A stretch of 64,000 nucleotides of DNA from Mycolicibacterium diernhoferi (GTDB lineage: Bacteria > Actinomycetota > Actinomycetes > Mycobacteriales > Mycobacteriaceae). This document shows, in pieces, positions 1,091 through 20,461 of the stretch. The DNA is taken from contig NZ_CP080332.1 of assembly GCF_019456655.1 (NCBI RefSeq), positions 3,906,001-3,970,000 of the forward strand, given 5' to 3'. Every line of letters begins with the position of its first letter. Position 1 is the first letter of the stretch. The notes beneath the pieces were generated by a model. The model worked only from the letters and a program-made list of their open reading frames with translations, searched no databases and was not told the origin of the DNA. The translations under genes and the position numbers were made by a program.

Positions 1091-4000
1091 CTATCCAACG
1101 AACACCACCGACACTGTGTTGCTGAAAACATTAGCGACGTAAAGCAGTCGGCCATCGGGACTGACTGCGAGCCCGAACGGATTATTGCCGACTCGAACAG
1201 TAGCGATCACGGTGTTCGTGGAAATGTCGATCACCGACACGGTGCTGCCGCCGATTTCGGGGTTGACGTAGTTGGTCACATACAGGCGGCTACCGTCGGG
1301 ACTGATTGTCAGTCCATACAGTGCGACATAGCCTTCGGCGACTGGGATAGTGGCAGTGACGGCATTCGTGGCAGCATCGATAACTGACACCGAGCCTCCG
1401 GATTCGTTTACGACATAAAGGCTGCCGCCGTTGGGTGCTACCGCCAACGCTCCCGGACCATATGTGCCGAGCGGGATGGTCGTCGATACGGAATTCGTGG
1501 CAGTGTCGATCACTGTCACCGTGCCCGAGGTTGAACCCCAATTATTTGCATTAGTAACGTAAACCAAGCTGCCGTCAGCACTGACCGCGACCCCAGTCGG
1601 TTGGTTTCCCTCCGGGTGCCCCGTCTGTTGAATGGTCGCAATGACCTTGTTCGTAGCGGTATTGATGACCGACACCTTGCCGCCAACGAAGCCTCCGGTG
1701 TCGATTGTGACGTATATCCGGCTGCCGTCCGGACTGATTGCCAGGCCCGTCGGCCAATCCGAAGCAGAACCATTGGTGACTGGTATGACCGCAATCACAG
1801 CGTTCGTAGCGGTATCGACCACTGATACTGAAGCAGCCCCCTGGACGGTGTTCATCACGTAGACGCGGCTGCCATCTGGCGCGATGACGATCCCGGCCGC
1901 ACCAGCGTCGACCGGGATGCTAGCGGTCACGGTCTGCGTAGCGGTGTCAATCACGGACACCGTGCCGCTATCGGTTCCGCCGACGACGTAGACGTAGCTG
2001 CCGTCGGGACTGGTAGCGGCATCGGTTGGGTAGGGGCCGACAGGAATGGTGGCGACGACAGTGTTCGATTCCGGGCTCGCGACCGGAACAGTGATGGTCT
2101 CGGAGATGAGCCCCCCGTGACCGTCGTCGGCAGTCACAACGAATGTGTCGGTGCTGTCGGCATTGGCGGTAATCCGTTGAACTGCCCTCGGGGTGTATAA
2201 AAACGCCCCGGTGGCAGCATCCACATCGACTGTGCCGCCATAGTTGGTTGTGGCGGGAACGCTGAAAATCAACGCATCACCATCGGGGTCAGTGATGTTG
2301 AGGTGGCCGGTCACTGCTCCTGTCGCTATGTCGATGGCATTGACGACGTAGGCAGGGCTCCCCACCGCCGTAGTAGGTGCGTTGTTGGCCGGAGCGACAG
2401 CAACGGTGACCGTGGTGCTGTGTGTGCCGCCGTGTCCGTCGGTCACGGTGACAATGAATAAATCGGTCGTCGCCGTGATGGGGGCATTGTCGGCTGCGGC
2501 GGCGTGGCGCTGGCTCGCGGCCGGGATATAGGTGAAGAACCCGTCGGGTCGAATTGAGACTGTCCCACCGCCAGCACTGTGGACCGGGCCCTCGAAGGTC
2601 ACCAGATCCCCGTCAGGGTCCGTAACCGTGACCTTTCCTGCAACCCTGCCCGTGACGGGATCTTCGTCGTCGATGGCCACTGTGACCATGGTCGGGGCGC
2701 TGTTGACGTGCCCTGCAGGAGCGATGGCTACTGTCACCGATTTGGTTGTGGTTCCACCGAATCCGTCTGTCACCGTGACCGTGAATGTTTCCTGCTTGGC
2801 CGAGATTGAGGCGTTGGGTTTCACTGCTGCGGTGCGTGCCGCTGTGGTCGGGGTGTAGGTGAACGACCCACCAGCATCGAAGGTGATCGTGCCCTTCTTC
2901 GGGCTTGCTTTGAACGCCAGCGCATCGCCGTCGGCATCGGTGGCACCCAGTGTGCCGGTGACGATCCCGGTGTTGGGGTTCGGGCTATTCACGGTAGGCG
3001 TGCCAGCCAGTGCAGGTGCCGTGTTTGCGGGAGCGATAGCAACAGTCACCAGCTTGGTCATAGAGCCGCCGTGCCCGTCCGTCACAGTGACGGTGAAACT
3101 GTCCTGTTTGACCGCTTTCGGCGCTCCCGTCATCGAGGCGGCGTGCCGGGCCGCTGTGCTCGGGGTGTAGGTGAACGCTCCCGTGGTTGGATTGGCGATC
3201 ACCGTGCCCTTTGCCGTGGCAGCCGGTGCTACATAGGTCAGCATGTCCTTGTCGGCGTCGGTGGCCTTAATGGTCCCGGTGACCACGCCGGTGGTCGTGT
3301 TGGGCTTACCGACCGTCGCCGTAACCTTTGGTGCCTTGTTGGCCGCAAGAATCGCCACCTCAACCGTTTTAGTGGCGATGCCGCCATGCCCGTCAGACAC
3401 CGAGAGGGTAATCGAATCCTTCAAATCTTGCGGACTCGCGGTGGCCGCCGACGCTGCATGCCGGGCCGCAGCGGTCGGAGTGTAAGTGAATGTTCCGGTC
3501 TTGGCGTTGACCACCACCTTGCCCTTGGCCGTGGAGGTCCCACTGAACACCAGCTTGTCCTGATCTGCGTCGGTCGCGGCGATCTTGCCGGTCGCCACAC
3601 CGGTTTTGGAGTTCGGTGTGGTGACAGTCGAGGAGGTGATCGCGGGGCCGGTGTTGGACGGGGTAATCGGCACAGTGAGCGTCTTCACTACAGTTCCGCC
3701 GTGACCGTCATTTACGGTGACGCTGAAGGTGTCAACTTTCACCGATGTCTTTGCCCCTACCGCTGCTGCGGCGTGCCGGGCTGCCTCGGTCGGGGTGTAG
3801 ATGAAAGAGCCACCAGTGCCGAAGGTGATCGCTCCCTTCTTTGGGAGGGCGTAATACGTCACGGGATCGCCATCGTCATCGACAACAGCCAGAGTGCCCG
3901 TCAACACCCCCGTCGTGGAGTCCGGGGATCCGACCATCGGGTTCGTCGCTACGGTCGGTGCGGCATTCTTCGGCGCAATTGCGACCGTCACCACCTTGTT

Positions 4001-6367
4001 TACGACACCACCGAATCCATCCGAGACATTCAAAGTAAAGGTGTCGGTCTTCGCGCTACTGGGCGCACTTGCCACCGACGCTTCATGTCGCGCCTCCACA
4101 CTGGGGGTGTAGGTAAATGCCCCAGTAACTGCATTAACCTCTACCACGCCGCCTTTCGCGCTAAATGGCGGCGCGGTGTAGGTCGGCGTGTCTTTGTCAG
4201 CATCGGTCGCGGCCGCCTTGCCAGTCACTACACCAGTCGCCGCATTCGCCTTACTGACGGAGACCTTGAGGGTCGGAGCTGTGTTCTTTGGGCCGATGAC
4301 TACCGTCACCGGGACGCTGACGGTTCCGGTCGGGCCGCCGTTGACCATCACTGTGAACGTGTCAGTCAGCACCGCCGCACCTGCGCCTGACACCGATGCG
4401 GCATGGCGTGCAGCAGCACTCGGCGTATAAGTAAAAGCACCACTGCTGTTGACGCTTACCTTGCCCTTTGCGGGGACACTGGCGGTATAGACGAGCTTCT
4501 GATTGCCAGGGTTAGTGATAGTGACCGTCCCCAACACAACGCCCGTCTTCACGTTCGGCTTACCCACCAACGCATACGCGGTGATACCGGTGTCGATGAC
4601 CGATACCGTTCCGGTGGTGTAATTCGTGACATAAGCCCGAGTACCGTTCGGGCTCAACGCCACCGCGTACAGATCAGTACCCAATGCAACGGGGGCACCG
4701 ACCGCGGCGTTGGTGGCCGTATCGATCACTGACAGGGTGCCATTACCGCTGCCGTCGCCATCACCGATATTGGTGACGTAGAGGCGGGTGCCGTCCAAAC
4801 TCGCCGTCACACCGAAGGGTGAAATACCTACCGGGATAGGAGTACCTACAGTCCGGTTGGTTGCTGTATCGATGACAGATACCGTGCCGTCCCATTGGTT
4901 GGTGACGTAGACGCGCGAGCCATTTGGGCTCACCGTCACGCTCGACGGATAGCGGCCTACTAGGACTGGGTCGCCGACGGCGGAGTTAGTTACGGTATCG
5001 ATCACCGTGACAGTGTCGGTGTAGGAATTGGTGACGTAGATGCGGGTGCCGTTCGGGCTCATTGCTATCCCAAGCGGGTGCTCTCCGAGTGGGATCGCGG
5101 CACCGAGTGTCTTGTTGGTGGCGGTATCAATCACAGACACCGTCCCGCCGTAGTAGTTGGCGACGTAGACACGTGAACCATCCGGACTCACCGCTACGCC
5201 GACAGGTCCCCGTCCCACCGAGATCGGGGCACCGACAACCTGGTTGGTGGCGGTATCGATTACGGACAGGGTGTCGCCATCGTGGTTAGTGACGTAGACA
5301 CGTGAACCATCCGGACTCACCGCTACACCGATAGGGGTCAGTCCCACTCTGATTGGCGCACCGACGATGCTGTTAGTTGCGGTGTTGATCACCGATACCG
5401 TGCCATCGTTGGAATTGGCGACGTAGACGCGGGTTCCGTTCGGAGCTACGGTTATGCCCCACGGACCATTCCCCACACGGACGGGAGCCCCGATGGCACT
5501 GGCGGGTGCGGCGGTCCTCGCCGGGCCTTCTGCCGATTCAGCGGAAGCAGTCGCAGTCAAGGCTAGGCCCCGCGCGTCTTCGACAGTGGGCGTGCTCGAA
5601 TCTCCATCCATGTCGCCGATCTCACGCCGTACCGCGGCCAATACCACCCACTCCGCCGGAGACTGCACCGGCAGACCGGTTCCCGGCGCTAGCGAAGGCG
5701 CGGCAACCGTGGCCACCACCTCAGCCTTCGCCGTACCAATGGATGCGGACACCTCGGGAACAGGATCCGAGGCGACCCGCTCGGTGGATACCGTGCTGAC
5801 AGGGGTCGCGACACTCAACGTCACTCTGCTGGTCGACAGCTTGGAGTCCGCCACCTCGTTCGCGGTCCCGGCATCGTCGATTTTCAACTCGGTCGGTGCC
5901 CGCGACGATTCGATAGCCTGTGCAGTAGCGGGCGTAACAGCTCTACGGTCAGGCTTGCGCTTGGGCGGACGCACCGACTTGATCGAGTGCGAACCAGTCG
6001 TTTTTGACGTGGACTCATCCGGTTCAGGTGGAGTTAATGGCTCTGACGTTGTCGTCGTCCCGGAACTGGGTTCATTGACCGCCGCACCCGGTGTCGAGCT
6101 GCTATCGGAACTGCTGGCGGACCCCGCTGCCGAACCTGACGGAGAGGCCGATGATGACGAGGCGTCGGTATCGCCGGTCTCCGCCCACGCCGGGACCGAA
6201 ACAACCGCCGATCCGATCCCCAACGCGACTGCCAACGCCCCGACACGACCGATGTACCTGGCTGACCCCACTGCTGCTCCCTCGGTGCGTCCTGTGCCCA
6301 CACCACTAGAGCGCTGTGGAATCGCTGTGCGAGTTATAGCAAACAATTGACGCTGACGTTGGGCCAT
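1091..6367 (-). CDS. Giant exported propeller / cadherin-like repeat protein
   Basis: The 1758-residue product has a mycobacterial export signal: a basic N-terminus, a hydrophobic core at about residues 39-60 and a likely cleavage after VPAWA (about 62). A Ser/Thr/Pro-rich linker (about 64-290) follows. Next come seven YVTN/NHL-type propeller blades (about 295-597, pattern 'VAVSPDGxxVYVxN..xxTVSVIDTATN'), eight cadherin/VCBS-like repeats of about 104 residues (598-1432, pattern 'TGxVTGTxxATDADxD' and 'GxFTYTP') and seven more blades to the C-terminus. The product is probably exported and surface-exposed. Several repeats carry acidic DxD-type sites that could bind calcium (inference). I prefer ATG 6367 to the GTG at 6406 because neither has a strong ribosome site and the ATG keeps a usual-length signal region. 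No operon partners. Substrate or ligand unknown. Confidence 0.85.
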   Translation of the reverse strand: MAQRQRQLFAITRTAIPQRSSGVGTGRTEGAAVGSARYIGRVGALAVALGIGSAVVSVPAWAETGDTDASSSSASPSGSAAGSASSSDSSSTPGAAVNEPSSGTTTTSEPLTPPEPDESTSKTTGSHSIKSVRPPKRKPDRRAVTPATAQAIESSRAPTELKIDDAGTANEVADSKLSTSRVTLSVATPVSTVSTERVASDPVPEVSASIGTAKAEVVATVAAPSLAPGTGLPVQSPAEWVVLAAVRREIGDMDGDSSTPTVEDARGLALTATASAESAEGPARTAAPASAIGAPVRVGNGPWGITVAPNGTRVYVANSNDGTVSVINTATNSIVGAPIRVGLTPIGVAVSPDGSRVYVTNHDGDTLSVIDTATNQVVGAPISVGRGPVGVAVSPDGSRVYVANYYGGTVSVIDTATNKTLGAAIPLGEHPLGIAMSPNGTRIYVTNSYTDTVTVIDTVTNSAVGDPVLVGRYPSSVTVSPNGSRVYVTNQWDGTVSVIDTATNRTVGTPIPVGISPFGVTASLDGTRLYVTNIGDGDGSGNGTLSVIDTATNAAVGAPVALGTDLYAVALSPNGTRAYVTNYTTGTVSVIDTGITAYALVGKPNVKTGVVLGTVTITNPGNQKLVYTASVPAKGKVSVNSSGAFTYTPSAAARHAASVSGAGAAVLTDTFTVMVNGGPTGTVSVPVTVVIGPKNTAPTLKVSVSKANAATGVVTGKAAATDADKDTPTYTAPPFSAKGGVVEVNAVTGAFTYTPSVEARHEASVASAPSSAKTDTFTLNVSDGFGGVVNKVVTVAIAPKNAAPTVATNPMVGSPDSTTGVLTGTLAVVDDDGDPVTYYALPKKGAITFGTGGSFIYTPTEAARHAAAAVGAKTSVKVDTFSVTVNDGHGGTVVKTLTVPITPSNTGPAITSSTVTTPNSKTGVATGKIAATDADQDKLVFSGTSTAKGKVVVNAKTGTFTYTPTAAARHAASAATASPQDLKDSITLSVSDGHGGIATKTVEVAILAANKAPKVTATVGKPNTTTGVVTGTIKATDADKDMLTYVAPAATAKGTVIANPTTGAFTYTPSTAARHAASMTGAPKAVKQDSFTVTVTDGHGGSMTKLVTVAIAPANTAPALAGTPTVNSPNPNTGIVTGTLGATDADGDALAFKASPKKGTITFDAGGSFTYTPTTAARTAAVKPNASISAKQETFTVTVTDGFGGTTTKSVTVAIAPAGHVNSAPTMVTVAIDDEDPVTGRVAGKVTVTDPDGDLVTFEGPVHSAGGGTVSIRPDGFFTYIPAASQRHAAAADNAPITATTDLFIVTVTDGHGGTHSTTVTVAVAPANNAPTTAVGSPAYVVNAIDIATGAVTGHLNITDPDGDALIFSVPATTNYGGTVDVDAATGAFLYTPRAVQRITANADSTDTFVVTADDGHGGLISETITVPVASPESNTVVATIPVGPYPTDAATSPDGSYVYVVGGTDSGTVSVIDTATQTVTASIPVDAGAAGIVIAPDGSRVYVMNTVQGAASVSVVDTATNAVIAVIPVTNGSASDWPTGLAISPDGSRIYVTIDTGGFVGGKVSVINTATNKVIATIQQTGHPEGNQPTGVAVSADGSLVYVTNANNWGSTSGTVTVIDTATNSVSTTIPLGTYGPGALAVAPNGGSLYVVNESGGSVSVIDAATNAVTATIPVAEGYVALYGLTISPDGSRLYVTNYVNPEIGGSTVSVIDISTNTVIATVRVGNNPFGLAVSPDGRLLYVANVFSNTVSVVFVG
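2070..4576 (-). repeat. Eight-unit cadherin-like coding repeat array
   Basis: Eight tandem units of about 312 bp within the surface-protein gene, each encoding a beta-sandwich-like module ending in 'VTVxDGHGGxxxKxVTVAIAP' or a close variant. Units have diverged at the DNA level, so this is a protein-domain array rather than a recent tandem duplication. Boundaries are approximate. Confidence 0.75.
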
Positions 6368-6509
6368 CGGGGCGTTTCTCGGAGAGTTCACCCGAATGGC
6401 GCACACAAGGCCGAGCCGCGCCCGCCCCTATTGCTGCAGGCTGCCGCTCTGGGAGAGCTTCGAGTTAGATCTCAGGTGACGAGGTCGTGGCGGAGGTATC
6501 CCGATTCTG

Positions 6510-6995: not shown

Positions 6996-7709
6996 TCAGG
7001 CAGCTGCCCGACGCTGTCCCACATGCTGGCTCACTGTGATGGCTCGGACTGTCGCAGAAAACCATTTCGATCTACCTCGGGCCGTCGAGATCCGGTCAGC
7101 AGTCAGACCATCTGCGATTGCTTGAAACGTCCGTCCCTCTCGCCGTTCTGCGAGGATCCTGGCGACTACAGCGTCCGGTAGGCGAGGAACTGCGCCTAGT
7201 CTCTCACCACGAGCACGTTTGGCAGCCAGAGCATCTCGTGTCCTCTGGCTTATCAGACGCCGTTCGTATTGGGAGCCGGAAATAATGATGTTCGCGGCCA
7301 TCTCCCCCGCTGGAGTACTGGTGTCGATGTCAAGGTCGGCGAAGTGTAAAGCCCAACCCTCCCGACGGGCCGACTCCATCAGACTTGCTCCGTCGACGAC
7401 CGATCGGCTTAGACGGTCCATCTTGGCTACCAGCAGACCGGCTGCACGCTTAGACCGCACAGCATCAAGGGCAGCCAATGCTCCAGGTCTTCCTTTGAGA
7501 TTCTTGGCGCTGATGCCTTCGTCGCAGAACTCTTCAATGATCCGTAGGCCTTTGCGATCCGCATAGACTCGTGCGGTTGCACGCTGCGCTTCAATGCCTA
7601 GGCCGGAGGCAGCCTGCTCGGACGTTGACACCCGGAGATAGACGACCGCAGTGTCCGGCGGAGCCACACCTTTGGACCTTCGTTTCCCTGGAATCCCCAC
7701 ATAACGCAT
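6996..7709 (-). CDS. Small serine recombinase (resolvase/invertase family)
   Basis: This 237-residue site-specific recombinase appears complete. The N-terminal resolvase domain has the nucleophile Ser28 in 'YLRVSTSEQ', a 'GLGIEAQ' loop, and 'KMDRLSRSV' and 'ISGSQYERR' segments typical of the fold. The C-terminus (about residues 175-230) holds a short HTH DNA-binding region. I choose ATG 7709; reading frame continues upstream, but the sequence there is not recombinase-like and a perfect 26-bp inverted repeat overlaps this start. The gene abuts a truncated IS256-family transposase, so it may belong to a nested or rearranged element. The family catalyses strand exchange at short paired sites through a 5'-phosphoserine intermediate. 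Its target site is unknown. Confidence 0.85.
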   Translation of the reverse strand: MRYVGIPGKRRSKGVAPPDTAVVYLRVSTSEQAASGLGIEAQRATARVYADRKGLRIIEEFCDEGISAKNLKGRPGALAALDAVRSKRAAGLLVAKMDRLSRSVVDGASLMESARREGWALHFADLDIDTSTPAGEMAANIIISGSQYERRLISQRTRDALAAKRARGERLGAVPRLPDAVVARILAERREGRTFQAIADGLTADRISTARGRSKWFSATVRAITVSQHVGQRRAAA

Positions 7710-7733
7710 AACATTGAGGGACGTCAATGTTAT
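7708..7733. promoter_or_regulatory. 26-bp inverted repeat at the recombinase start
   Basis: ATAACATTGA and TCAATGTTAT form perfect 10-bp arms around a 6-bp spacer. The repeat overlaps the recombinase ATG. It could be an autoregulatory operator, a recombination crossover site, or a hairpin that occludes translation start. It is AT-rich compared with its surroundings. Confidence 0.6.
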
Positions 7734-7787
7734 TTCGTGGTCGTACTTCACCGTCCTTGCCGAGGCGCCGACACACTGGCCTTCAGC

Positions 7788-8095
7788 TTCCCGAAGTTTG
7801 CGACCATGCTCGGCGCGGCCAAGACTGACGTGCTCGCGTTCACCGCGTTCACACGGGCGCACTGGCAGAAGATTTGGTCGATCAACCCGATCGAGCGGCT
7901 CAACAAGGAGATCAAGCGCCGCGCTGACGGCGTCGAGATCTTCCCCAACCCGGCCGCGTTCCTACAACTGGAGACCGCGGTGGTCATCGAAGCACACGAC
8001 GAGTGGCAGATCACCCGCCGCTATCTCTCCGACGTCTCCATGGACGAGCTACGGGCTGTCATCGAGAAGAAACACGCGGCGGTAGCTACATGCCA
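7788..8095 (+). pseudogene. C-terminal fragment of an IS256-family (mutator) transposase
   Basis: The frame encodes 'AFTRAHWQKIWSINPIERLN', 'KEIKRRADGVEIFPN' and 'YLSDVSMDELRAVI', hallmark C-terminal sequence of mycobacterial IS256-family transposases. It includes the conserved 'NPIERLNKEIKRR' helix that carries the last acidic catalytic residue (Glu of the DDE triad). The first two thirds, including the two catalytic aspartates, are absent: upstream sequence runs into the recombinase start region. The frame also runs past the normal end (about 8090) into unrelated sequence. It is therefore truncated at both ends and cannot transpose. It marks an insertion or deletion event between the recombinase and the phage-like segment to the right. 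Confidence 0.85.
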
Positions 8096-8565
8096 AACGA
8101 AATCAAATCGACTAGCGTTCAACATGATTCGCGTGATTGTAATGCGTGGACCACGCCAGATCCGAAGTCCACCACTCCCCGGGACGCTATCGTCGCACAC
8201 CGTGAAGCGGTGCAGGATGGGCCAGCAGGGTGTCCGGTATTCGCCGATCACCGTCGGCGGGAGTTCGGACGGACGGCCGGGTGTTGCGAAATGCAACGCA
8301 CGCCGCAGGTCAAGCGCGAACGGATACTCGCCAGGATCAAGTATCCCGGGTGACGGGATCAGCGATTCCGTCACCCGCGCGCCGCAGCGTGGCCGTCCGC
8401 GCGATATACCGATACACCCCGCAGAGGTGTTCAAGTTTTGAACACTCACGTCCCGAGTCCGATGCATGCGCGCGATATGCGTTCCCGCCGGAGAAGTGGC
8501 ACGTCGACATAAAGTCGAACATCGAATATGACTTCTCGGTCGGTTTTTTTGCAAAATGAAGTGGC
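8096..8565. other. Gene-poor stretch with hairpins; no gene recognised
   Basis: No frame here has convincing coding character, although a minus-strand segment around 8180-8350 reads somewhat protein-like without a credible start. Two structures stand out: a 9-bp perfect stem GGGTGACGG/CCGTCACCC (8348-8376, 11-base loop) and a 19-bp palindrome GTGTTCAA-GTT-TTGAACAC (8427-8445). A T-run at 8544-8550 precedes the promoter of the next unit. Confidence 0.5.
8427..8445. promoter_or_regulatory. 19-bp palindrome, possible operator
   Basis: Perfect 8-bp arms GTGTTCAA/TTGAACAC with a 3-bp centre, about 120 bp upstream of a strong sigma-70-like promoter. The size and symmetry fit a dimeric repressor site; no cognate regulator was identified. 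Confidence 0.4.
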
Positions 8566-9599: not shown

Positions 9600-11435
9600 T
9601 CAACCTCCAACTCGGTTGAGCATTGCGTTGGCCAGCCTTTCCGCGTAGTCACCGGCCATTGATGGATCTGGTCGTGATGGGATCTGGCTGCCCGAGCCGA
9701 ACGGGCGCGTCGTTCCGACATCCCGGCATGTCCTGGTTTGGACCACAACGTTGTCGCGGATCCCGAGCGCCACCTGGCAAGCTGGTGTCTGGGCGTTCTC
9801 CACATTGGCCGCTGTCATATGCATGGTGAGCATTGATGTCGTCCTGGCAGGATCGCTTAGGTACCAACTAAATCCTCTCTCGTAGCCGAGATCCTCATCC
9901 ACCGATGAATCCGACGAATAGGCCGTCGGGTGACCGTCCGCGCATTCATTCCAGCGCACGTTCGATGAGTCGAGGATCGCCTGCGCTTGTTCCGCAGAGG
10001 CAAAGATCACGACGGATTGCTGCACCAGATCGTCGATATACGAGATGGTCTTACCAAGTGTCTGGTCACGGACTGCCTCGTAACCGGTACCGGCATAAAC
10101 CTGTTGCTCAGCACCGTGGAGCACCCCCACACAGGCCGACGGGTCGGCTGCATGGGTGTTGTCTGAGGTGCCTTGGGACGAATTGAGTAGTTCGACAGCT
10201 CGTCCACCAGGCGGATCACCGTCAAACACACCGTCTGTGAGGGCCGTGATGTCAGCCGGTGTCAGAAGTATCGAGTCAATCGACGACGCCGGAAACTCCG
10301 GCGGTGGCGGCGTTGTAGTTTCAAGCACTGACGAAACCTCTGGGGAGCTGGACGCAGAAGGCGGCAGAACTGGAGTACTGCCCAGATCCGATGACGACGC
10401 ATCAGAGGCCGCCCAAGGTCTCCACACCAGAATCAGTGCAGCCAGAGCAAGTGCCGCGCATAAGGACAGGACAACCGACCTGACGGTCCGCTTTGAGCGT
10501 GCCGAATTCCGACTGTGCAGTCCTAGATTCGGATCTCTCGACGGCGTAGCGGCCCGTGCGAACGCTGTCTGCGCTGACCCCGAAACCGAACCATCAGCAT
10601 TTGACCGCAGAATAAGCGAGTCCGATAGCTCCACGCACCGTGCATAACGTCGGTCAGGGTCCTTATCCAGCGCTACAGAAATGCTCTGATCCAGGCTCGC
10701 CAGACCACTGTGGATCGAGGCCAATGACGGTGGTGGAGTGTTCAAGTGCCTGCTAATGACAACCGCCGGATTGGAGTTCGGGAACAAATGCGAGCCGGTC
10801 AACAGGTGGTAGGTCGTCGCAGCGAGGGCGTACTGATCGGCACGTCCATCCATGGGCTCGCCCATGAGCTGTTCGGGTGCCGCGTAGGCCACGGTTCCAA
10901 CCGTCATGTTGGTGGTGGTAATCCCGCAGGTGTCATCGAGGGGACGGGCGATCCCGAAGTCGGCCAGAAACACTTTGGGGTCGTCGGTGTCGAGGTCAGC
11001 AACGATGATGTTGGCGGGCTTGACGTCTCGGTGCAGGAGCCCCTTCTTGTGGGCATAGTCCAGCGCCCCGGCCACGGCGGTGACTATCGGCAAGACATGA
11101 CCAACAGGCATTCCCTGCGGATATCGCTGCCCTAGTAGTTCAGCGAGGTCGGTGCCGTCGATGTAGTCCATCGCGATCCACAACTGGCCCTCATATTCAC
11201 CCCGGTCGTGGATGCCGACAATGTGGGGATGCCGTAGGCCTGATGCCAGGTCAGCTTCCCGTGTGAACCGTTCGCGGAACGACTCATCCTGCGACAGATC
11301 AGGACGAAGTACCTTCAGTGCCTCCTGACGTGGGAGACGGGGGTGTTGGACCAGGTACACCTGACCCATTCCGCCCGAGCCAAGCAGGCGCAGAACGCGG
11401 TACCCGGCGAAAGTGTCACCGATTCTCAGCGGCAT
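9600..11435 (-). CDS. PknH-like receptor Ser/Thr protein kinase
   Basis: The 611-residue protein has an intact Hanks-type kinase domain (about residues 12-270): glycine loop 'GSGGMGQV' (19-26), Lys41, catalytic Asp137 in 'LHRDVKPAN', DFG at 159-161 and an APE segment. A juxtamembrane linker is followed by one membrane helix (about 330-350), a Pro/Ser linker and an extracellular domain with four cysteines ('PSACVG', 'NECADG', 'PACQVAL', 'RTCRD'). That is the PknH sensor pattern with two disulfides. ATG 11435 puts the kinase domain at the N-terminus as usual; upstream in-frame sequence is not kinase-like. It is adjacent to, and divergent from, a lipoprotein/secreted-protein pair. A decayed sister gene lies at 6510-6895. 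Confidence 0.9.
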
Positions 11436-11634
11436 GGGGCGAATGCTACCCACTGTCACGGCAACGACCATGGGTATGAGTCCGCCAACGTCCAATTCTG
11501 AATGCTTATCGCGCAACAGCGTGCAGAGTTGCCGATACTCGTCCGAGTAGATCGACTTTTCCACTGCGATAGCGCACCGTGCGCCTAGAATTATCCCGAT
11601 TCAGGATATTTGTGGCGGGGAAAGCGAGGGCCGG

Positions 11635-13632: not shown

Positions 13633-13917
13633 ATGCCTCTATCCAAACTCATCAGTCGGGTGGAACTGGCCGAACAGCTTGGCATCTCGGAAAGCGGCGA
13701 GCTTCGAGGGCGTCTCCTAGACCCAGGATGGCCAGCCCATATCCGTATAGGCCAACGAGTCTTCTACCGCGAGGCCGTGGTTGAGCAGTGGCTTCAGGAC
13801 CGGGAGGCGCGCACCACGTCTCCGGGCTTCGACAGCGCGGGCACCGCCGTGCCCCATCAGCAGCTGGACCTAGCAGTCCCCAGCGACGGCCCTACCACCG
13901 ATGGCGGTGCGCTATGA
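13633..13917 (+). CDS. Excisionase-like HTH DNA-binding protein
   Basis: This 94-residue protein begins with a MerR/HTH_17-type fold: 'ISRVELAEQLGIS' as the recognition region, a wing with 'WPAHIRIGQRVFYREAVVEQWL'. This is the usual layout of helix-turn-helix excisionase-type or plasmid-type regulators. The C-terminal 30 residues are a Pro/Ser-rich tail. ATG 13633 follows AAAGGCGG. Its stop overlaps the HNH gene start in ATGA, making it the first gene of a three-gene coupled operon. A second Xis-like protein lies beside the repressor at 18080-18283, so this one is more likely a transcriptional or replication regulator of the operon. Confidence 0.75.
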   Translation: MPLSKLISRVELAEQLGISESGELRGRLLDPGWPAHIRIGQRVFYREAVVEQWLQDREARTTSPGFDSAGTAVPHQQLDLAVPSDGPTTDGGAL

Positions 13918-14357
13918 GGCTGCCATTCACCTGGGGACCAGAGTTTTTCGAGCGCAGGGACTGCAGAACCTGTGGCCAGACCAAGCTTCTATGCCAGATG
14001 GCGAAGGACTCGCGTCGCCCGACGGGCTACCGGACGCAGTGCGGGGTATGCCGACAAGGTTATGACTGGAGCCATAGCTACAAAATCCGATCACGGAAAT
14101 ACAGGCTCCCGGCCGTCGTGGAATGTTTTACACCAGCCGATCTAGTAGACCGTCACGGCGACAGGTGCGTCTACTGCCCAGACGGCGCGTTCGAGTGCAT
14201 CGACCACGTGGTCTGTGTGCGGGCCGGGGGTACCCACACGCTCGACAACGTCGTGCCCTGCTGCGTGTCCTGTAACACGGCCAAGTATTGGGTGGTAGAC
14301 CAGCCCCTAATCCGCCGCTTCGACGAGCTGCGCGCCCAGACGGTGGTGGCACCGTGA
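13914..14357 (+). CDS. HNH endonuclease
   Basis: The 147-residue protein has a zinc knuckle near the N-terminus (C17xxC20 and C43xxC46). A C-terminal HNH nuclease core follows: C85xxC88, 'IDHVV' (Asp97-His98), 'DNVVPCCVSCNTAK' (Asn112, C117xxC120, Asn121). The DH pair and the final Asn/Cys cluster are the metal-binding and catalytic parts of the fold. Short HNH proteins in phages often act with terminase to cut DNA; elsewhere they act as homing-type nickases. No terminase is present here, so packaging use would need a helper (inference). It is coupled by overlap to the genes on both sides (ATGA upstream, GTGA downstream). Confidence 0.85.
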   Translation: MRLPFTWGPEFFERRDCRTCGQTKLLCQMAKDSRRPTGYRTQCGVCRQGYDWSHSYKIRSRKYRLPAVVECFTPADLVDRHGDRCVYCPDGAFECIDHVVCVRAGGTHTLDNVVPCCVSCNTAKYWVVDQPLIRRFDELRAQTVVAP

Positions 14358-15028
14358 GCACCGATCCCTCCCTACCCAGGGCGCTGCCAGAGTGGGCCGT
14401 CGACCGGCTGATCTACGGGGTCGCCGAAGAACCGCTAACCCCGCAGGCTGTGTGGGGCACCATGCTTCGAATCGCGATGTGCGCCCAGGCCAGAGGCTGG
14501 AGCCAAGCCGATTTCATCGGAGAGGTCACCAGCTGCCAGAGGCGCAAGATCGCCAACGGTAAGCGACGGTGGGCCAGACACAAGCTGTGGGAACAGATGC
14601 TGGTCCACAACTCCTCAGAGGCTGCCGCACACCGAGCGCTGGATAAGGCCTGGCGGTGCGCTGAGGAGAACATGTTCAGTGGAGCCCTGCGGACCACCGA
14701 CGACCTCCGCTCTGACGCCGTTGAGCGGGCATACCTATGGCAGGACAGGCTGGATACCGGGCAGGATAGCTTCACCCCCACAGAGAGCGGGGTGATGCGC
14801 TACGTCGCTACCCAGACCGAACGCCGCCGCCTGACCAGAGTGACCTGCCCGGCCAGGGACGTCGCCGAGTATGCAGGAATCTCCCCGATGACGGCCTCAC
14901 GGACGTTGAAGTCACTGTCCGACAGGGGTTTTCTGGTCCGCTTCTCCAAGGGAAGAGCTGGACTGGCGGGGAATCGACGAGCGGCCATCTACAGCTTGGC
15001 TGAACCGGACGGAGAAGATCCGGCATGA
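14354..15028 (+). CDS. Winged-helix protein, possible replication or regulatory factor
   Basis: The 224-residue product starts at GTG 14354, overlapping the HNH stop. Residues about 160-215 form a winged helix ('VAEYAGISPMTASRTLKSLSDRG' over two turns, then a basic wing 'FSKGRAGLAGNRRA'). It resembles the DNA-binding part of plasmid and integrative-element proteins. The N-terminal 150 residues are helical and rich in Trp, Gln and Arg without a known enzymatic motif. It is the last gene of the operon and is followed by a hairpin. In small integrative elements such proteins are often replication initiators or partners of a primase. That is a guess here. Confidence 0.65.
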   Translation: MSTDPSLPRALPEWAVDRLIYGVAEEPLTPQAVWGTMLRIAMCAQARGWSQADFIGEVTSCQRRKIANGKRRWARHKLWEQMLVHNSSEAAAHRALDKAWRCAEENMFSGALRTTDDLRSDAVERAYLWQDRLDTGQDSFTPTESGVMRYVATQTERRRLTRVTCPARDVAEYAGISPMTASRTLKSLSDRGFLVRFSKGRAGLAGNRRAAIYSLAEPDGEDPA

Positions 15029-15799: not shown

Positions 15800-17077
15800 C
15801 TAGCTCTTCCTGTCCACTTGGAGGTCGAGACCTCTGTTCCCAGCTACTTTCAGCATCGTGGCTTGGAGGTCTTCTTGATCCTCTGTCACCACGATGAAGG
15901 AGTCATGCACCGGGAGTGGGCAGCGTCCTGTCTTCTCGATCATCTGGAGCATGACTTGGATCGCCATGTCGGAGTCTGTCCGCATGAACCGGGCTCCACA
16001 GTCTGAACCGAACAGCTCTTTGATGGGTTCATGCTTCTCTGCTATTGCCTCGACAATGTACTCGGCAACGATCCTCGGCAGCTTCCCTGAACTGGATTCT
16101 ATTCCGCACAGGGTTCTATGTTCCGCATACGTACGAAGGTGATGCGTCAGAGCCTTCATGGCACTTGGAAGATCTCTGGCGTTGAGCATGATGAGGAATG
16201 CCCGCTTCACGACGTCTCGGTCGTAGCCCTCTATCTCGTAGAGGTCCCCTACCGGAATCGGCAGCCCCATTTGGGTGTATGCCATCACGGGATGCAGGCT
16301 CTTGTAATCCAACTCAACCGTGTCGCGGAGCTCCCCATCCAATTGCAGCCTCACCCACGCCCGGTGACGCCTTGGCATGTTCTGGACCGAGTCTCCCTGC
16401 AGGTAAAAGCGCCCGCCACGGTCGAAGGTACCGTTGAAGATCCTTCGTCCCCTTACGGTTCCGAACGTCTGGCCGCTCCCCACCCACACGTCGAGCGTCC
16501 CAAGACTGGTATTGATGACCTCGACTTGCACCCGCATCTTGGCGACCTCGTCGGTGTCTGAATAGTCCTTCAAGTCGGAGATATCTTCGCCGTCGAGGTC
16601 ATCCTTGCTCTTGCGCAGGACGATGGCTTCGAACCTTTCAGGTTCACCCCGTCCTTCGCGCCGTTCAACGACATCGCCGGTCAGGTTCACCAGGGCGCTG
16701 GTGGCGGTTGCAGTTGACTGCCAGCCCCGATTCGCCGAGTTGTACCAATAGCCTGTGAACGCCTTGGCGAGCCCGAGGTCGGCGAGCTGATCTACGGCCT
16801 TCGTGACGTAGTGGTAGCTGTAGTACTGGTCTGCATACCGCTTCGGAGGGTAGAAATTCTTCCTCCGGCTGTAGCGGACCCCATTCCCTGTGAGCTTGTA
16901 AACCACCAGAAGCGAACGGGCGACACTTGCGATAGACCATGGCATTTCGCCTGTCAAACCAGGCGGGAGCACGGGTCGCAGCTTCTCTAACACCGGGAAC
17001 AATTGGTCAGGACGCCAGCGCAGTTCCAACGGTACCTGCGCTCTGGCGAGCGGATTCTCTAGGCCGAAAGATGTCAC
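15800..17077 (-). CDS. Minimal family-A polymerase-like protein with N-terminal wHTH
   Basis: In the C-terminal half of this 425-residue protein three motifs occur in the order of the family-A (Pol I/T7) palm. Motif A is 'VELDYKSLHPVM' with Asp257. A motif-B-like helix is 'RDVVKRAFLIMLNA' with Arg287 and Lys291. Motif C is 'PVHDSFIV' with His391-Asp392. Before it lies 'DSDMAIQVMLQMIEKTG', like the helix that precedes motif C in Pol I. No 3'-5' or 5'-3' exonuclease is present and the fingers are very short. Residues about 45-125 look like a winged helix. Start is GTG 17077 inside a palindrome. It is probably a replicase or primase-polymerase of the integrative element (inference). Related unnamed proteins with the pattern 'RIFNG.F..GGRFY' occur in other mobile elements. 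Confidence 0.65.
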   Translation of the reverse strand: MTSFGLENPLARAQVPLELRWRPDQLFPVLEKLRPVLPPGLTGEMPWSIASVARSLLVVYKLTGNGVRYSRRKNFYPPKRYADQYYSYHYVTKAVDQLADLGLAKAFTGYWYNSANRGWQSTATATSALVNLTGDVVERREGRGEPERFEAIVLRKSKDDLDGEDISDLKDYSDTDEVAKMRVQVEVINTSLGTLDVWVGSGQTFGTVRGRRIFNGTFDRGGRFYLQGDSVQNMPRRHRAWVRLQLDGELRDTVELDYKSLHPVMAYTQMGLPIPVGDLYEIEGYDRDVVKRAFLIMLNARDLPSAMKALTHHLRTYAEHRTLCGIESSSGKLPRIVAEYIVEAIAEKHEPIKELFGSDCGARFMRTDSDMAIQVMLQMIEKTGRCPLPVHDSFIVVTEDQEDLQATMLKVAGNRGLDLQVDRKS

Positions 17078-17471: not shown

Positions 17472-17963
17472 TCATCCGTTGTCGTCCTCGCCCTCGTCCA
17501 TATCGAACCAATCGTGCGCTGGTTCGTTTATTACGACCGTGCAGTTGGGCGGCTTCGGCCCCATCGCACCAACTGGGTATGCGTACGACGGGAGCCAGGG
17601 CACGACGTACGCGTTTTCGTCCGCAGGCTCGAAGTCCTCAGCGTCGAAGTCTGCAGGCCAACCGAGATCACCGGCCAGCTCCACAACGGGCGTACCGTCG
17701 CTATAGAAGCTGAAGGCCTTTTTAGCCTCGGCCTCAGAGCCTCCCGACGTTTCGACACTCCAGATCGTAACGAGCTTCAACCGTTGCACGCAGATTTCAA
17801 GGTCATCTAGCACAGAGTCCAGCTCTTGCTGGTCAATCCGCCCGCCCCGTTGGAGATCGCGGACGAATTGATCGATACGCCAAGCACTTAGAGTGCCCTC
17901 GGCAAGAGCGTGTTTACGGTCGTCTTCTACCTGCGCCGGAGTCCGGCCATATAGATCTTTCAT
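17472..17963 (-). CDS. Hypothetical protein with acidic C-terminus
   Basis: The 163-residue product starts at ATG 17963, preceded by AAGGA, which decides the start against the longer frame. The N-terminal half is helical and charged ('LYGRTPAQVEDDRKHALAEG', 'GGRIDQQELDSVLDDLEICV'). The C-terminal half is Asp/Glu/Pro-rich with several Trp and ends 'DMDEGEDDNG'. The acidic tail could mimic DNA or recruit a basic partner, but that is speculation. It lies between the polymerase-like gene and xis on the same strand, so it may share the Xis promoter. I do not recognise a family. Confidence 0.65.
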   Translation of the reverse strand: MKDLYGRTPAQVEDDRKHALAEGTLSAWRIDQFVRDLQRGGRIDQQELDSVLDDLEICVQRLKLVTIWSVETSGGSEAEAKKAFSFYSDGTPVVELAGDLGWPADFDAEDFEPADENAYVVPWLPSYAYPVGAMGPKPPNCTVVINEPAHDWFDMDEGEDDNG

Positions 17964-18079
17964 TTCATTCCTTAAACTGTGAGTACGTAGTTCTGTCCAA
18001 CCCCGCCCAGAGGCGGTCCGATCCTTGCAACTCAACGTGGCGCGGCGCTAGGTCAAGCCACGGATGTCGCTAACGGTAA

Positions 18080-18283
18080 CTATCGATTCCCCTCCCTTCG
18101 CTCACCTTCCTTACAACGGTGCTCTACAAGGAAGCTTTCGACGTCGTCCCACCGGTAAAGCACACGGCGACCTATCCGAATGAACGCCGGACCCGTTCCA
18201 CGCCAGCGCATCTGAGCGAGTGCGGCGGCGGTAGTTCGCAGGTAGCAGGCCACCTCGGCTGGTTGTGCGAGTGATTCCTTCAC
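18080..18283 (-). CDS. xis: Excisionase (HTH_17/MerR-like)
   Basis: The 67-residue protein is a typical mycobacterial-element excisionase. It has 'LAQPAEVACYLRTTAAALAQM' as the HTH, then 'WRGTGPAFIRIGRRVLYRWDDV' as the wing, and a basic tail. Excisionases bind beside the attachment site and steer the integrase towards excision. The gene is divergent from the XRE repressor with about 100 bp between the starts. This is the standard genetic switch layout of temperate elements. ATG 18283 keeps the full fold. The name rests on fold and context, not on a site-specific test; it could also regulate the downstream leftward genes. Confidence 0.8.
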   Translation of the reverse strand: MKESLAQPAEVACYLRTTAAALAQMRWRGTGPAFIRIGRRVLYRWDDVESFLVEHRCKEGERREGNR

Positions 18284-18352
18284 CGCCGCCTCCCATCAAA
18301 ACTGGACTCACGCAAGTCAATATTTGGTTGCTAGAGGCCAGCCTACCGCGCG

Positions 18353-18373
18353 CCGGGTTGTCTGGCAACCCGG
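18353..18373. promoter_or_regulatory. 21-bp palindrome in the xis/repressor switch region
   Basis: CCGGGTTG-TCTGG-CAACCCGG has perfect 8-bp arms. It lies between the divergent starts of xis (18283) and the XRE repressor (18388), 14 bp before the repressor ATG. It fits a repressor operator. Confidence 0.6.
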
Positions 18374-18387
18374 ATCTCGGTAGCGTT

Positions 18388-19185
18388 ATGGTCATGGTCG
18401 ACGAGACACCTGCAGAGCTGCGCGTTGTGGTCGGCAAGAACCTCAGAAGACTGCGCACAGACGCTGGCATCACCCTGAATCGGCTAGCCGTGGCCGCCCG
18501 CCACCGCGGTCTGAACTGGGCAGAATCGAGGGCGGCAGATTTCGAGCGGGGGCTGGGCTCGCCGTCTCTTCCCACCCTGATCGCCCTGTGCTGCGCGCTT
18601 CGCGACGTCGGTTGTCAATCGGCCACAATCGCCGAGCTCATCCACACCGATGGGGGCGAGATCCGGGTCAATGGCGGCTTGTGCCTGTCGGAGAGCGCAG
18701 CTGTCTCGATCTTGTGCGAGCAGATCCTGCCGCCGAAATCGGCCAGCGCAGCAGCACAACCTGGTCCTCGGCGAACCTCGGCGAGCCCTCCGACGGCACA
18801 GGGAGATTTCTCCATCCCATTCCTTCGCAGGAGCGAGGATGTGCCATCGTTCATTCTCGCCGACGTCCTGAAGCAGTTGGCGGGTCGCCGGAACCTATCC
18901 GCTCAGCAGTCGGTAGGCCGACTCTTCGAGGCGGTGACCCCAGACACTGTAAGGACGGTTCTCGCGCAGTCAGGCGCGCCAGAGCGGAAGATCGAAAAGT
19001 CACTCAATCTGTCATATGCAGAACTGGCCGTCGCATCTGCCGCGCTGTGGGGGGAGGCCTTCTCCATCCACCGCGACAAGCTTGCCGGGGAAGGAGCCAA
19101 CCGGCAGAAGCGCGGTCAAATCACACGCCGAATGAAGGAAGAGCTACTTCAAGCTCTCGGCGAGCCAGGCGCTCATGGCCGGTAG
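18388..19185 (+). CDS. XRE-type HTH repressor of the integrative element
   Basis: The 265-residue protein starts with a Cro/CI-type HTH ('VGKNLRRLRTDAGITLNRLA' followed by 'SRAADFERGLGSPSLPTL', about residues 15-65). A second region (about 145-255) contains 'LKQLAGRRNLSAQQSVGRLF' and may mediate oligomerisation or sensing. ATG 18388 was chosen; ATG 18394 is equally possible. It is divergent from xis across a palindromic site and its end overlaps the integrase start by 11 bp, so repressor and integrase are co-transcribed. It most likely maintains the integrated state by repressing the leftward genes. No catalytic Ser-Lys pair of a LexA/CI autoprotease was recognised. Confidence 0.75.
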   Translation: MVMVDETPAELRVVVGKNLRRLRTDAGITLNRLAVAARHRGLNWAESRAADFERGLGSPSLPTLIALCCALRDVGCQSATIAELIHTDGGEIRVNGGLCLSESAAVSILCEQILPPKSASAAAQPGPRRTSASPPTAQGDFSIPFLRRSEDVPSFILADVLKQLAGRRNLSAQQSVGRLFEAVTPDTVRTVLAQSGAPERKIEKSLNLSYAELAVASAALWGEAFSIHRDKLAGEGANRQKRGQITRRMKEELLQALGEPGAHGR

Positions 19186-20344
19186 GCCCCCACTGCGAAT
19201 CGGCCAGCATGGAAGGATCTCGCGGACGAAGAAGGCCAACGGCGTCTGGGTGGCGAGGTGCCGGTACCGAGATCACGACGGAGTCACTCGCACGGTCGAA
19301 CGACGTGGCCCCCTCGATGAGTTCGACCAGTACGGAAAGCTCGCTGAGGACGCGCTGATCGCCGCGCTGGCAGAGCGTCAGGCACCGGGTGTCTCCGACG
19401 CCGTGGGACCCGACACGCTGGTGATGACGCTGGTAGATGAGCACCTGCGTCGACTGGCCGAGGACGGGAGGTCAGTCGCCACGCTGGCCACCTATGCGTT
19501 CACCGCAGAGAAGCTGCGCAAGTTCGTTGGTGGTGTGCGGGTGCGCGAGGCTACCACGGCCCGGTTGGATGCCGCGCTGCGGTCGATGCGCACCGCGCAC
19601 GGCGCGACGATGGCCAAACAGTCCAAGACGATTCTGCGCGGTGGTCTCCAGCTCGCCGTCATGGCCAGCGCACTGACCGCCAACCCGGTGCGCGACGTGA
19701 ACACGATCAGGCCGAGAGCTGCACCCAAGGGCGCTGCCGCGCTGACGGCCGAGCAAGTGCGCGCTCTGCTGATTGATGTGCGGTCGTCGGACTACTGCGC
19801 TACGCGTGACCTGGCCGATCCGATCATCCTGCTGATCGCGACCGGCCTGCGCCGCTCCGAGCTCCTGGCCCTGCAATGGTCGGACTTTGATGCCGACGCG
19901 GCAACGCTGAGCGTCACCGGCAAGCTGGTCCGCGCGACTGGTTACGGTCTGCAGCGGGTCGAGGACACCAAGACGGCCGCCGGACTGCGCACTGTCGCGC
20001 TCCCCAAGTTCGCGGTCGACATGCTCACCGCCCGGCACGGCCGCGAGTACGCGGGCGAACAGGACATGATTTTCCCGGCCACCTCGGGCACCTGGCGCGA
20101 CCCGAACAACTTCGGTAAAGCATGGCGCAGTGTGCGTGAGGCGCTCGGCGTCCCCGGAGTCACCAGCCACTCATTCCGCAAGACGGTGGCGACACTGATT
20201 GACGACGGCGGCCTGTCTGCACGCATTGGTGCTGACCAGCTCGGGCACTCGAAAGTGTCAATGACGCAGGACCGGTACATGGCGCGGGGCCGGGTCCACA
20301 CCGAGGTGGCCGACCTGCTGGACCGCGCTATAAGCGATGAATAA
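19175..20344 (+). CDS. int: Tyrosine integrase
   Basis: The 389-residue phage-type integrase has an N-terminal arm-binding part (about 1-70), a SAM-like core-binding domain (about 85-170) and a C-terminal catalytic domain. Catalytic residues are Arg226 ('ATGLRRSEL'), His332 and Arg335 ('SHSFRKT'), His358 ('LGHSK') and nucleophile Tyr368 ('DRYMA'). All are present, so it should be active. It overlaps the repressor gene and ends 44 bp from the 3' end of a CAU-anticodon tRNA. That is the usual position for an integrase whose attachment core is the tRNA 3' half. The element therefore extends leftwards from the tRNA. Confidence 0.95.
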   Translation: MAGRPPLRIGQHGRISRTKKANGVWVARCRYRDHDGVTRTVERRGPLDEFDQYGKLAEDALIAALAERQAPGVSDAVGPDTLVMTLVDEHLRRLAEDGRSVATLATYAFTAEKLRKFVGGVRVREATTARLDAALRSMRTAHGATMAKQSKTILRGGLQLAVMASALTANPVRDVNTIRPRAAPKGAAALTAEQVRALLIDVRSSDYCATRDLADPIILLIATGLRRSELLALQWSDFDADAATLSVTGKLVRATGYGLQRVEDTKTAAGLRTVALPKFAVDMLTARHGREYAGEQDMIFPATSGTWRDPNNFGKAWRSVREALGVPGVTSHSFRKTVATLIDDGGLSARIGADQLGHSKVSMTQDRYMARGRVHTEVADLLDRAISDE

Positions 20345-20387
20345 ACGATGGATTGTTGCCAGCAATCTTTAGAAATACGCTCTGCAG

Positions 20388-20430
20388 TGGGGCGGGCGGG
20401 GCTCGAACCCGCGACCAAGGGATTATGAGT
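20388..20430. other. Likely attachment site (tRNA 3' half)
   Basis: The integrase stop lies next to the tRNA 3' end, and the intact tRNA shows that the element restores it. The attachment core should be within the anticodon-to-acceptor part. I searched by eye for a second copy to the left and found none, so the other junction may lie outside the window or have decayed. Confidence 0.5.
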
Positions 20431-20461
20431 CCCCGGCTCTAACCAACTGAGCTACCGCCCC
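20388..20461 (-). tRNA. tRNA with CAU anticodon (Met or Ile2)
   Basis: A full cloverleaf on the minus strand: acceptor GGGGCGG/CCGCCCC with discriminator A, D-arm GCTC/GAGC, anticodon loop CTCATAA, T-arm GCGGG/CCCGC with TTCGAGC. CCA is not encoded (followed by CTGCA). The anticodon CAU fits elongator tRNA-Met or tRNA-Ile read as AUA after lysidine modification. The 'CTTGGTCGC' after the anticodon stem resembles bacterial tRNA-Ile2. Confidence 0.9.

Follow-up and report, generated by a model that had tools for sequence, protein, structure and literature searches.

The region described here (the window) is a stretch of 64,000 nucleotides from Mycolicibacterium diernhoferi (RefSeq assembly GCF_019456655.1, contig NZ_CP080332.1, positions 3,906,001 to 3,970,000 of the forward strand). 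On the complementary strand it carries an intact open reading frame (ORF), with a GTG start and no internal stops, that encodes a protein of 425 residues, here called POL. The gene lies in what is likely an integrative element, near genes for a tyrosine integrase, an excisionase-like protein and a repressor-like protein, and close to a tRNA-Met gene (Table 1). The kind of protein is already known: it is that of the TV-Pol family (2008) and of divPolA2. POL is matched over residues 65-410 by phrog_4756, a PHROGs family of unknown function (E-value 5.5e-61).

The predicted structure of POL consists of two folds, and the second is a palm with short fingers. It matches the phage Barba31A protein A0A4P8NBL2 in BFVD (E 1.5e-19) and the DNA replication protein of the Zamilon virophage (E 5.1e-4), and its structural neighbors are DNA polymerases and the mitochondrial RNA polymerase, as is the case for divPolA2. 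In the model, the elements of motifs A, B and C are placed as in a family-A palm: the aspartate of motif A is near the end of strand 249-258, a single helix (287-299) carries both R287 and K291, and H391-D392 lie between strands 388-390 and 393-397. R223 is found in strand 217-226, which follows strand 210-215, resembling the hairpin arginine of TV-Pols. Helices 127-136 and 176-192 are candidates for a bi-helical thumb. The N-terminal fold resembles winged helices and probably is one. A preliminary description of the window had proposed a minimal family-A polymerase without an exonuclease domain, fused to an N-terminal winged helix; in agreement with this, POL has no match to any nuclease family in Pfam, and the two folds take up residues 21-142 and 148-425.

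The same description had placed motifs A, B and C at VELDYKSLHP (Asp257), RDVVKRAFLIMLNA (Arg287 and Lys291) and PVHDSFIV (Asp392). All three are present in the translation at these residues and follow each other in a palm-like order in the model. The alignment used for residue counts contains 187 sequences: 102 from alignment A3, POL of the window included, 75 POL ORFs from genome contigs (5 of 80, shorter than 350 residues, were dropped) and 10 phage or plasmid sequences; some of these rows are near copies of one another (e.g. P0124 and ICP1 ORF100). R223 and H391 are conserved in all 187, D257 in 186, D392 in 185, and R287 and K291, the RxxxK of the fingers, in 185 and 186, respectively. 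Because they are nearly invariant across the alignment, the motif residues are not a product of chance. D278 (174 of 187) is a candidate for the conserved fingers aspartate of TV-Pols. A further motif, DRGGRFYLQGDSVQNMPRR, which the preliminary description did not list, is located upstream of motif A. In a weak hmmsearch match, it pairs with TGRLSSTEPNLQNIP of Pol I from the same genus, while TADYSQIE lies opposite VELDYKSLH, and HDE opposite the HDS of motif C. Judging from this alignment, H262 (conserved in 181 sequences) would occupy the position of Glu710 and N299 (182 sequences) that of Tyr766, in E. coli Pol I numbering. The POL family lacks the equivalents of these two canonical residues and has His and Asn instead. 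The Barba31A protein has Trp at position 262, and a diverged copy on a Neorhizobium plasmid (L007, 5425-6768) has Phe at both positions. In the plasmid copy, the residues around D368-S369 are altered too, and it may be decaying or functionally changed.

These residues also bear on the possibility that POL is a small single-subunit RNA polymerase, which would transcribe genes of the element or phage, or make RNA primers. The aspartate of the DxxGR motif is conserved in only 75 of the 187 sequences, and Asn replaces Tyr639 (T7 RNA polymerase numbering) in 182 of them. For divPolA2, which was described in Barba and related phages, either repair or an RNA polymerase function was proposed (Yutin et al. 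2024, PMC11348598; this report, as well as PMC7581432, PMC10061031 and PMC10803314, is cited for the part of its text that was available). In the same text, however, the N-terminal domain is said to have no relation to the N-terminal domains of RNA polymerases akin to PolA. In POL this domain resembles a winged helix, although a likeness of this kind does not speak against a T7-type promoter fold. Such a function of POL is improbable.

Table 1. Features of POL and of the surrounding element (coordinates in the window)
Feature	Coordinates	Strand	Basis
POL, 425-aa TV-Pol/divPolA2-like protein	15800..17077	-	phrog_4756 match, fold, conserved residues
Probable winged-helix-like N-terminal domain, residues 21-142	16652..17017	-	structural comparison
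Polymerase core (palm and short fingers), residues 148-425	15803..16636	-	structure model and fold matches
Motif preceding motif A, residues 219-239 (DRGGRFYLQGDSVQNMPRRHR), invariant R223	16361..16423	-	alignment
Motif A, residues 255-262 (ELDYKSLH), catalytic D257	16292..16315	-	alignment
Motif B (O-helix), residues 287-300, R287 and K291	16178..16219	-	alignment and model
Helix ahead of motif C, residues 361-372 (GARFMRTDSDMA), D368	15962..15997	-	alignment
Motif C, residues 389-394 (PVHDSF), catalytic D392	15896..15913	-	alignment
ORF of unknown function, 187 aa, between xis and POL	17472..18035	-	
Excisionase-like helix-turn-helix protein (xis)	18080..18283	-	HTH_17 2.9e-5 (just under cut-off); phrog_66 4.8e-5
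Repressor-like helix-turn-helix protein	18265..19185	+	HTH_31 4.7e-6
Tyrosine integrase	19175..20344	+	Phage_integrase 7.1e-19; phrog_1 3.2e-52
tRNA-Met, likely integration site	20387..20461	-	
246-aa ORF, C-terminal winged-helix-like part	14288..15028	+	weakly like replication initiators, phrog_27344 0.0021
HNH endonuclease	13788..14357	+	phrog_1035 7.7e-14
Small helix-turn-helix ORF	13633..13917	+	HTH_17, E 0.015, below cut-off

The assignment of the locus to an integrative element, which had been made from the sequence at the outset, is likely and rests on its right-hand side. The integrase gene ends 42 bases from the tRNA-Met gene and is accompanied by the excisionase-like and repressor-like genes, and the GC content rises from 0.56-0.66 to the left of tRNA-Met to 0.69-0.74 in the 5 kb on the other side. 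The left end was not found: the low GC content (0.56-0.63) persists for at least 10 kb to the left beyond the window, and no attL in the form of a 14-base repeat of the tRNA stretch is present within the window. Only weak short matches occur in the 30 kb to the left, and those in the whole genome are weak or short and were taken mostly as other tRNA genes. An empty site was not recovered from seven related genomes, as the left side is not common to them (the tblastx part of this comparison was uninformative). Partial copies of tRNA-Met (36-52 bp, 84-98% identical) are found elsewhere in ten of 30 related genomes (six belong to the genus and four to the order), which suggests that tRNA-Met is used as an integration site and may be a common hot spot. 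In the window, neither a helicase gene nor a capsid gene was recognized next to POL.

Another genome of the genus (G401) has POL, excisionase-like, repressor-like and integrase genes in the order of the window. The excisionase-like protein of the window is 67% identical over 55 residues to the one adjoining POL in that genome, and the repressor-like protein, whose true start is probably downstream of 18265, has a 36% identical copy there. The product of the 246-aa ORF shares 38% identity across 89 residues with a stretch adjoining POL in another locus (G472/L023). The HNH endonuclease probably starts at the ATG at 13914, as judged by eye.

The low-GC island contains several other genes. One of them (9600-11564) encodes a PknH-like serine/threonine kinase and has relatives, 41-66% identical, near POL in four other loci (G300, L025, L021 and L023/G472). 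Mycobacteria have many kinases of this type, and those near POL may be recurrent cargo or be there by chance. A 1771-aa protein with matches to bacterial Ig/cadherin-like repeats and a beta-propeller is encoded at 1091-6406, and a serine resolvase at 6996-7862. The DNA at 7760-8191 has an 82% identical counterpart, in inverted orientation, in another genome of the genus, where it is located about 1.5 kb from the tRNA-Met gene.

Relatives of POL are numerous but scattered. Of 8000 candidates scored in a protein search, 791 were relatives, as were 526 of 7996 in a profile search. With tblastn (E up to 1e-3), 278 of 50,697 phage records are positive, among them 138 of Vibrio, 114 of Rheinheimera and 14 of Aeromonas phages, with ICP1 ORF100 included, as are 3 of 72,556 plasmid records. 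A scan of 84,980 species, each represented by a single genome, for one conserved motif produced 183 motif matches and, among them, 167 loci with a relative. The best 80 of these 167 were retained; their sources are Actinobacteria, alpha-, beta-, gamma- and deltaproteobacteria, one myxobacterium and Lentisphaerae. In the genus itself POL is present in 6 of 198 genomes, its own genome counted, and this rare and patchy occurrence is as expected of a mobile gene. A family search in 296 genomes of the phylum had three positives, namely the genome of the window itself and two others whose matches, both weak and partial (E about 3e-4), are regarded as unproven, and a scan of viral_contigs with the POL sequence alone found no relatives.

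Recombinase genes are the recurrent neighbors of POL. Within 10 kb of POL, a single integrase cluster is common to 49 of the 80 loci (PHROGs matches bear out its identity in L033 and L027, described below), a serine-resolvase cluster, named by eye, is found in 22, and the next cluster, by eye a large serine recombinase, in 8; these are raw counts with no background rate, and the POL ORF was absent from two of the 80 loci in the clustering. In at least 24 of the 48 loci with both genes, POL is at most 1.4 kb from the integrase; three further distances were artefacts of overlapping calls. Pfam was used to scan 136 of the 171 neighboring ORFs, those left out being mostly shorter. No primase, replicative helicase or initiator is present among the 25 families examined, out of 122 matched.

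Some neighbors raise the possibility that POL is a conflict gene, which would disturb the replication of a rival phage or satellite instead of copying its own element. On plasmid pTElox9, POL is near methyltransferase and AbiE genes; restriction-modification-like genes, identified by eye, are near it in three loci; a homing endonuclease adjoins it in some lytic phages; and POL is present in large lytic phages, in one or two places among the records listed. The PADLOC search, however, gave no match to POL at E up to 0.01, and the association with integrases and the position in the packaging islands described next suit replication better. A conflict function is very improbable.

Two related islands of about 14 kb, L033 (6679-20033) and L027 (5711-20338), are situated about 50 kb apart in one Xanthobacteraceae metagenome-assembled genome, and their POL proteins are 77% identical. 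In L033, in which ten ORFs besides POL were scanned, the gene order is integrase, xis/AlpA-like, an ORF without a match, topoisomerase-like and POL, followed by TerS-like, portal, protease, capsid, head-tail adaptor, TerL and then head closure genes. Downstream, no tail or lysis families were found in the six ORFs scanned of 13 with at least 120 residues; what they contain is one HNH-like ORF and genes that look like those of the host, among them an acyl-CoA-ligase-like ORF (by eye). L027 has the same order, with a weak tail-fiber match after TerL and a valyl-tRNA synthetase-like ORF (by eye) further on. POL is the only polymerase recognized in either island. By their layout, L033 and L027 are candidate capsid-forming satellites of alphaproteobacteria.

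By combining these observations, it is possible to describe how POL might act. POL would be the polymerase of an integrated mobile element, of the minimal superfamily-A TV-Pol type, with a fused winged-helix-like domain. The integrase and excisionase would free the element. Close to an origin, the winged helix would then bind the DNA of the element or a single-stranded template, and the palm, which lacks an exonuclease, would make a primer or a short strand there, as CCPol does with its separate partner MP. Host enzymes would complete the replication. The fold, the conservation of the catalytic residues, the lack of a recognized nuclease domain and the recombinase genes nearby are computed results; that POL binds a template, primes de novo and serves to replicate the element is what we infer, and we consider it fairly probable that it is a primase-polymerase that starts replication of the element. 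The preliminary description had the fold and the motifs right and probably also the winged helix, and its guess of a replicase or primase-polymerase agrees with the published prediction for TV-Pols.

The following observations weigh against this description. POL has no Pfam match at E up to 10 and no NCBIfam match at E up to 1, and its weak matches to PDB sequences include no polymerases. When the profile of the POL family was compared by hhalign with T7 RNA polymerase, T7 DNA polymerase, six of 12 Pol I proteins of its own order and one Pol I profile, the scores were about 20-24, compared with up to 29.9 for 150 decoys. Six Pol I alignments cover the stretch from TxxGR to motif A, and T7 RNA polymerase and the Pol I profile align on motif C, with T7 DNA polymerase elsewhere, all without significance. 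The link to Pol I by sequence alone thus lacks significance. L027 carries a ParB-like gene and, inside its TerS-like ORF, a weak match to a P-like helicase loader (E 1.4e-4). The 25 neighbor families examined included every one with at least two members; each of the other 97 matched a single protein. CCPol primes only with a separate partner (PMC7581432), and the CCPol residues tied to the choice of dNTP (the Glu710 and Phe762 equivalents) are not conserved in the POL family. Finally, Barba31A, the one lytic phage examined gene by gene, encodes its own polymerase and primase besides the POL relative, and 110 barbaviruses likewise have another polymerase and primase (PMC11348598).

In hmmsearch runs at maximum sensitivity against 197 proteins, 10 of the 14 Pol I proteins, which are mutual relatives, were among the 17 with E up to 5 for the A3 profile (best 0.06), and 2 of the 14 among the nine listed for the A2 profile; T7 RNA polymerase and T7 DNA polymerase were listed by neither. 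In addition to Pol I, two genomes of the genus (L125 and L126) encode further ORFs of 450-474 aa that match PF00476; these are other short family-A polymerases, perhaps of prophages.

The gene content of Barba31A would suit a primer-dependent accessory DNA polymerase, which would act in gap filling or repair when an element is excised or integrated or a phage replicates, and would start no chains. Such a role would also be consistent with the variable neighborhoods of divPolA2, for which repair was named as an option (PMC11348598), with the ability of CCPol alone to extend primers without priming (PMC7581432), and with the short distance between POL and the integrase. However, no recurrent polymerase-like gene other than POL was seen in these elements or in the packaging islands, and gap filling needs no fused DNA-binding domain. 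An accessory function is rather unlikely. A function as the main replicase of lytic phages was also considered and was rejected: as barbaviruses have their own polymerase and primase (PMC11348598), the POL relative is not their main replicase.

Beyond the start of element replication by a primase-polymerase, a bolder version can be imagined, which is possible but doubtful. The fused winged helix might do the job of MP in cis, selecting the origin and permitting de novo priming, and the His262/Asn299 pair, in place of the Glu/Tyr sugar gate, might allow chains to be started with ribonucleotides. POL would then be a single-chain primase-polymerase of the Pol I superfamily and, by itself, the entire module with which a class of phage satellites and actinobacterial islands replicates, in place of the usual archaeo-eukaryotic primase (AEP) primase-helicase.

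The A-family polymerases are the textbook example of enzymes unable to start chains. The tested TV-Pol, CCPol-MP, needs a second protein (PMC7581432, PMC10061031). The branch with a fused N-terminal domain is found in islands of Actinobacteria, in elements of Proteobacteria and in many lytic phages. The fused winged helix and the altered sugar gate pose the question of whether a Pol I relative of 425 residues primes alone, and with which sugar. POL might also account for the copying of small islands in which no replication gene is recognizable. What is apparently new in the family are the actinobacterial members, the winged-helix reading, the His262/Asn299 pair, and the two islands of about 14 kb that have head and packaging genes and POL as the sole recognized polymerase. 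In the open literature, supplements aside, no account was found of the actinobacterial islands, the winged-helix reading, the His/Asn pair or packaging islands with POL, or of a union of divPolA2 with recombinase-linked bacterial elements.

The TV-Pols were defined by Iyer, Abhiman and Aravind in 2008 as proteins of 400-600 aa with a minimal superfamily-A core, which reside in mobile elements with an integrase or resolvase and were predicted to be both primase and polymerase (PMC2579912). POL has in common with them its size, the order and identity of the motifs, the RxxxK, the two aspartates, the invariant arginine before the palm, the absence of a nuclease and the integrase or resolvase neighbors (PMC2579912). 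Zamilon provides a further likeness, as the related Sputnik protein is counted as a TV-Pol (PMC2579912). Integrase, gamma-delta resolvase or transposase neighbors are a feature of the TV-Pol branch with an N-terminal domain, and integrase and resolvase-like neighbors are found at the POL loci; POL fits this recombinase-associated branch. The N-terminal domain, present in a subset of TV-Pols and uncharacterized, was predicted to be all-helical (PMC2579912), whereas that of POL is winged-helix-like, and Actinobacteria, to which POL belongs, are outside the lineages named. The published list includes the Microcystis phage Ma-LMM01 (PMC2579912). Ma-LMM01 MAP_030, whose gene adjoins a transposase, is the best of the 197 proteins for the POL profiles (E 1.3e-3 and 6.4e-4). 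It keeps D-x4-H and K-x7-N, with the Asn eight residues past the Lys, and has Val for R287 and His-Glu aligned at motif C.

POL is homologous to the divPolA2 group of Rheinheimera phages (PMC11348598), as follows from the 114 Rheinheimera records and the match to A0A4P8NBL2 mentioned above; Barba31A gp041 is presumably the divPolA2 of Yutin et al. Both have a palm, no exonuclease and the same structural neighbors. In the available text of that report, divPolA2 is treated as a phage gene, its N-terminal domain is without detectable similarity, no thumb homolog was seen, and it is not tied to TV-Pols or to bacterial islands (PMC11348598).

CCPol-MP is the one TV-Pol put to the test (PMC7581432, PMC10061031). 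Like POL, CCPol is an A-family polymerase of a mobile element, and it primes DNA de novo in vitro with its DNA-binding partner (PMC7581432). The Glu usual after the motif C aspartate is altered in both, by our own residue assignment for CCPol. MP, later predicted to be an OB fold, is a separate protein that is accompanied by a helicase (PMC10061031), whereas the extra domain of POL is fused and winged-helix-like. CCPol keeps the Glu710 and Phe762 equivalents (PMC7581432), whereas the POL family has His262 and mostly Asn or Leu at position 295. The islands L033 and L027, finally, resemble the capsid-forming phage-inducible chromosomal islands (cf-PICIs) and the phage-inducible chromosomal minimalist islands (PICMIs) in being small and integrated, with an integrase, an AlpA-like regulator and a replication gene, and the cf-PICIs also in having capsid genes of their own; capsid-forming satellites have an average size of about 14 kb (PMC10803314). 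Where satellites usually carry a primase, L033 and L027 carry POL.
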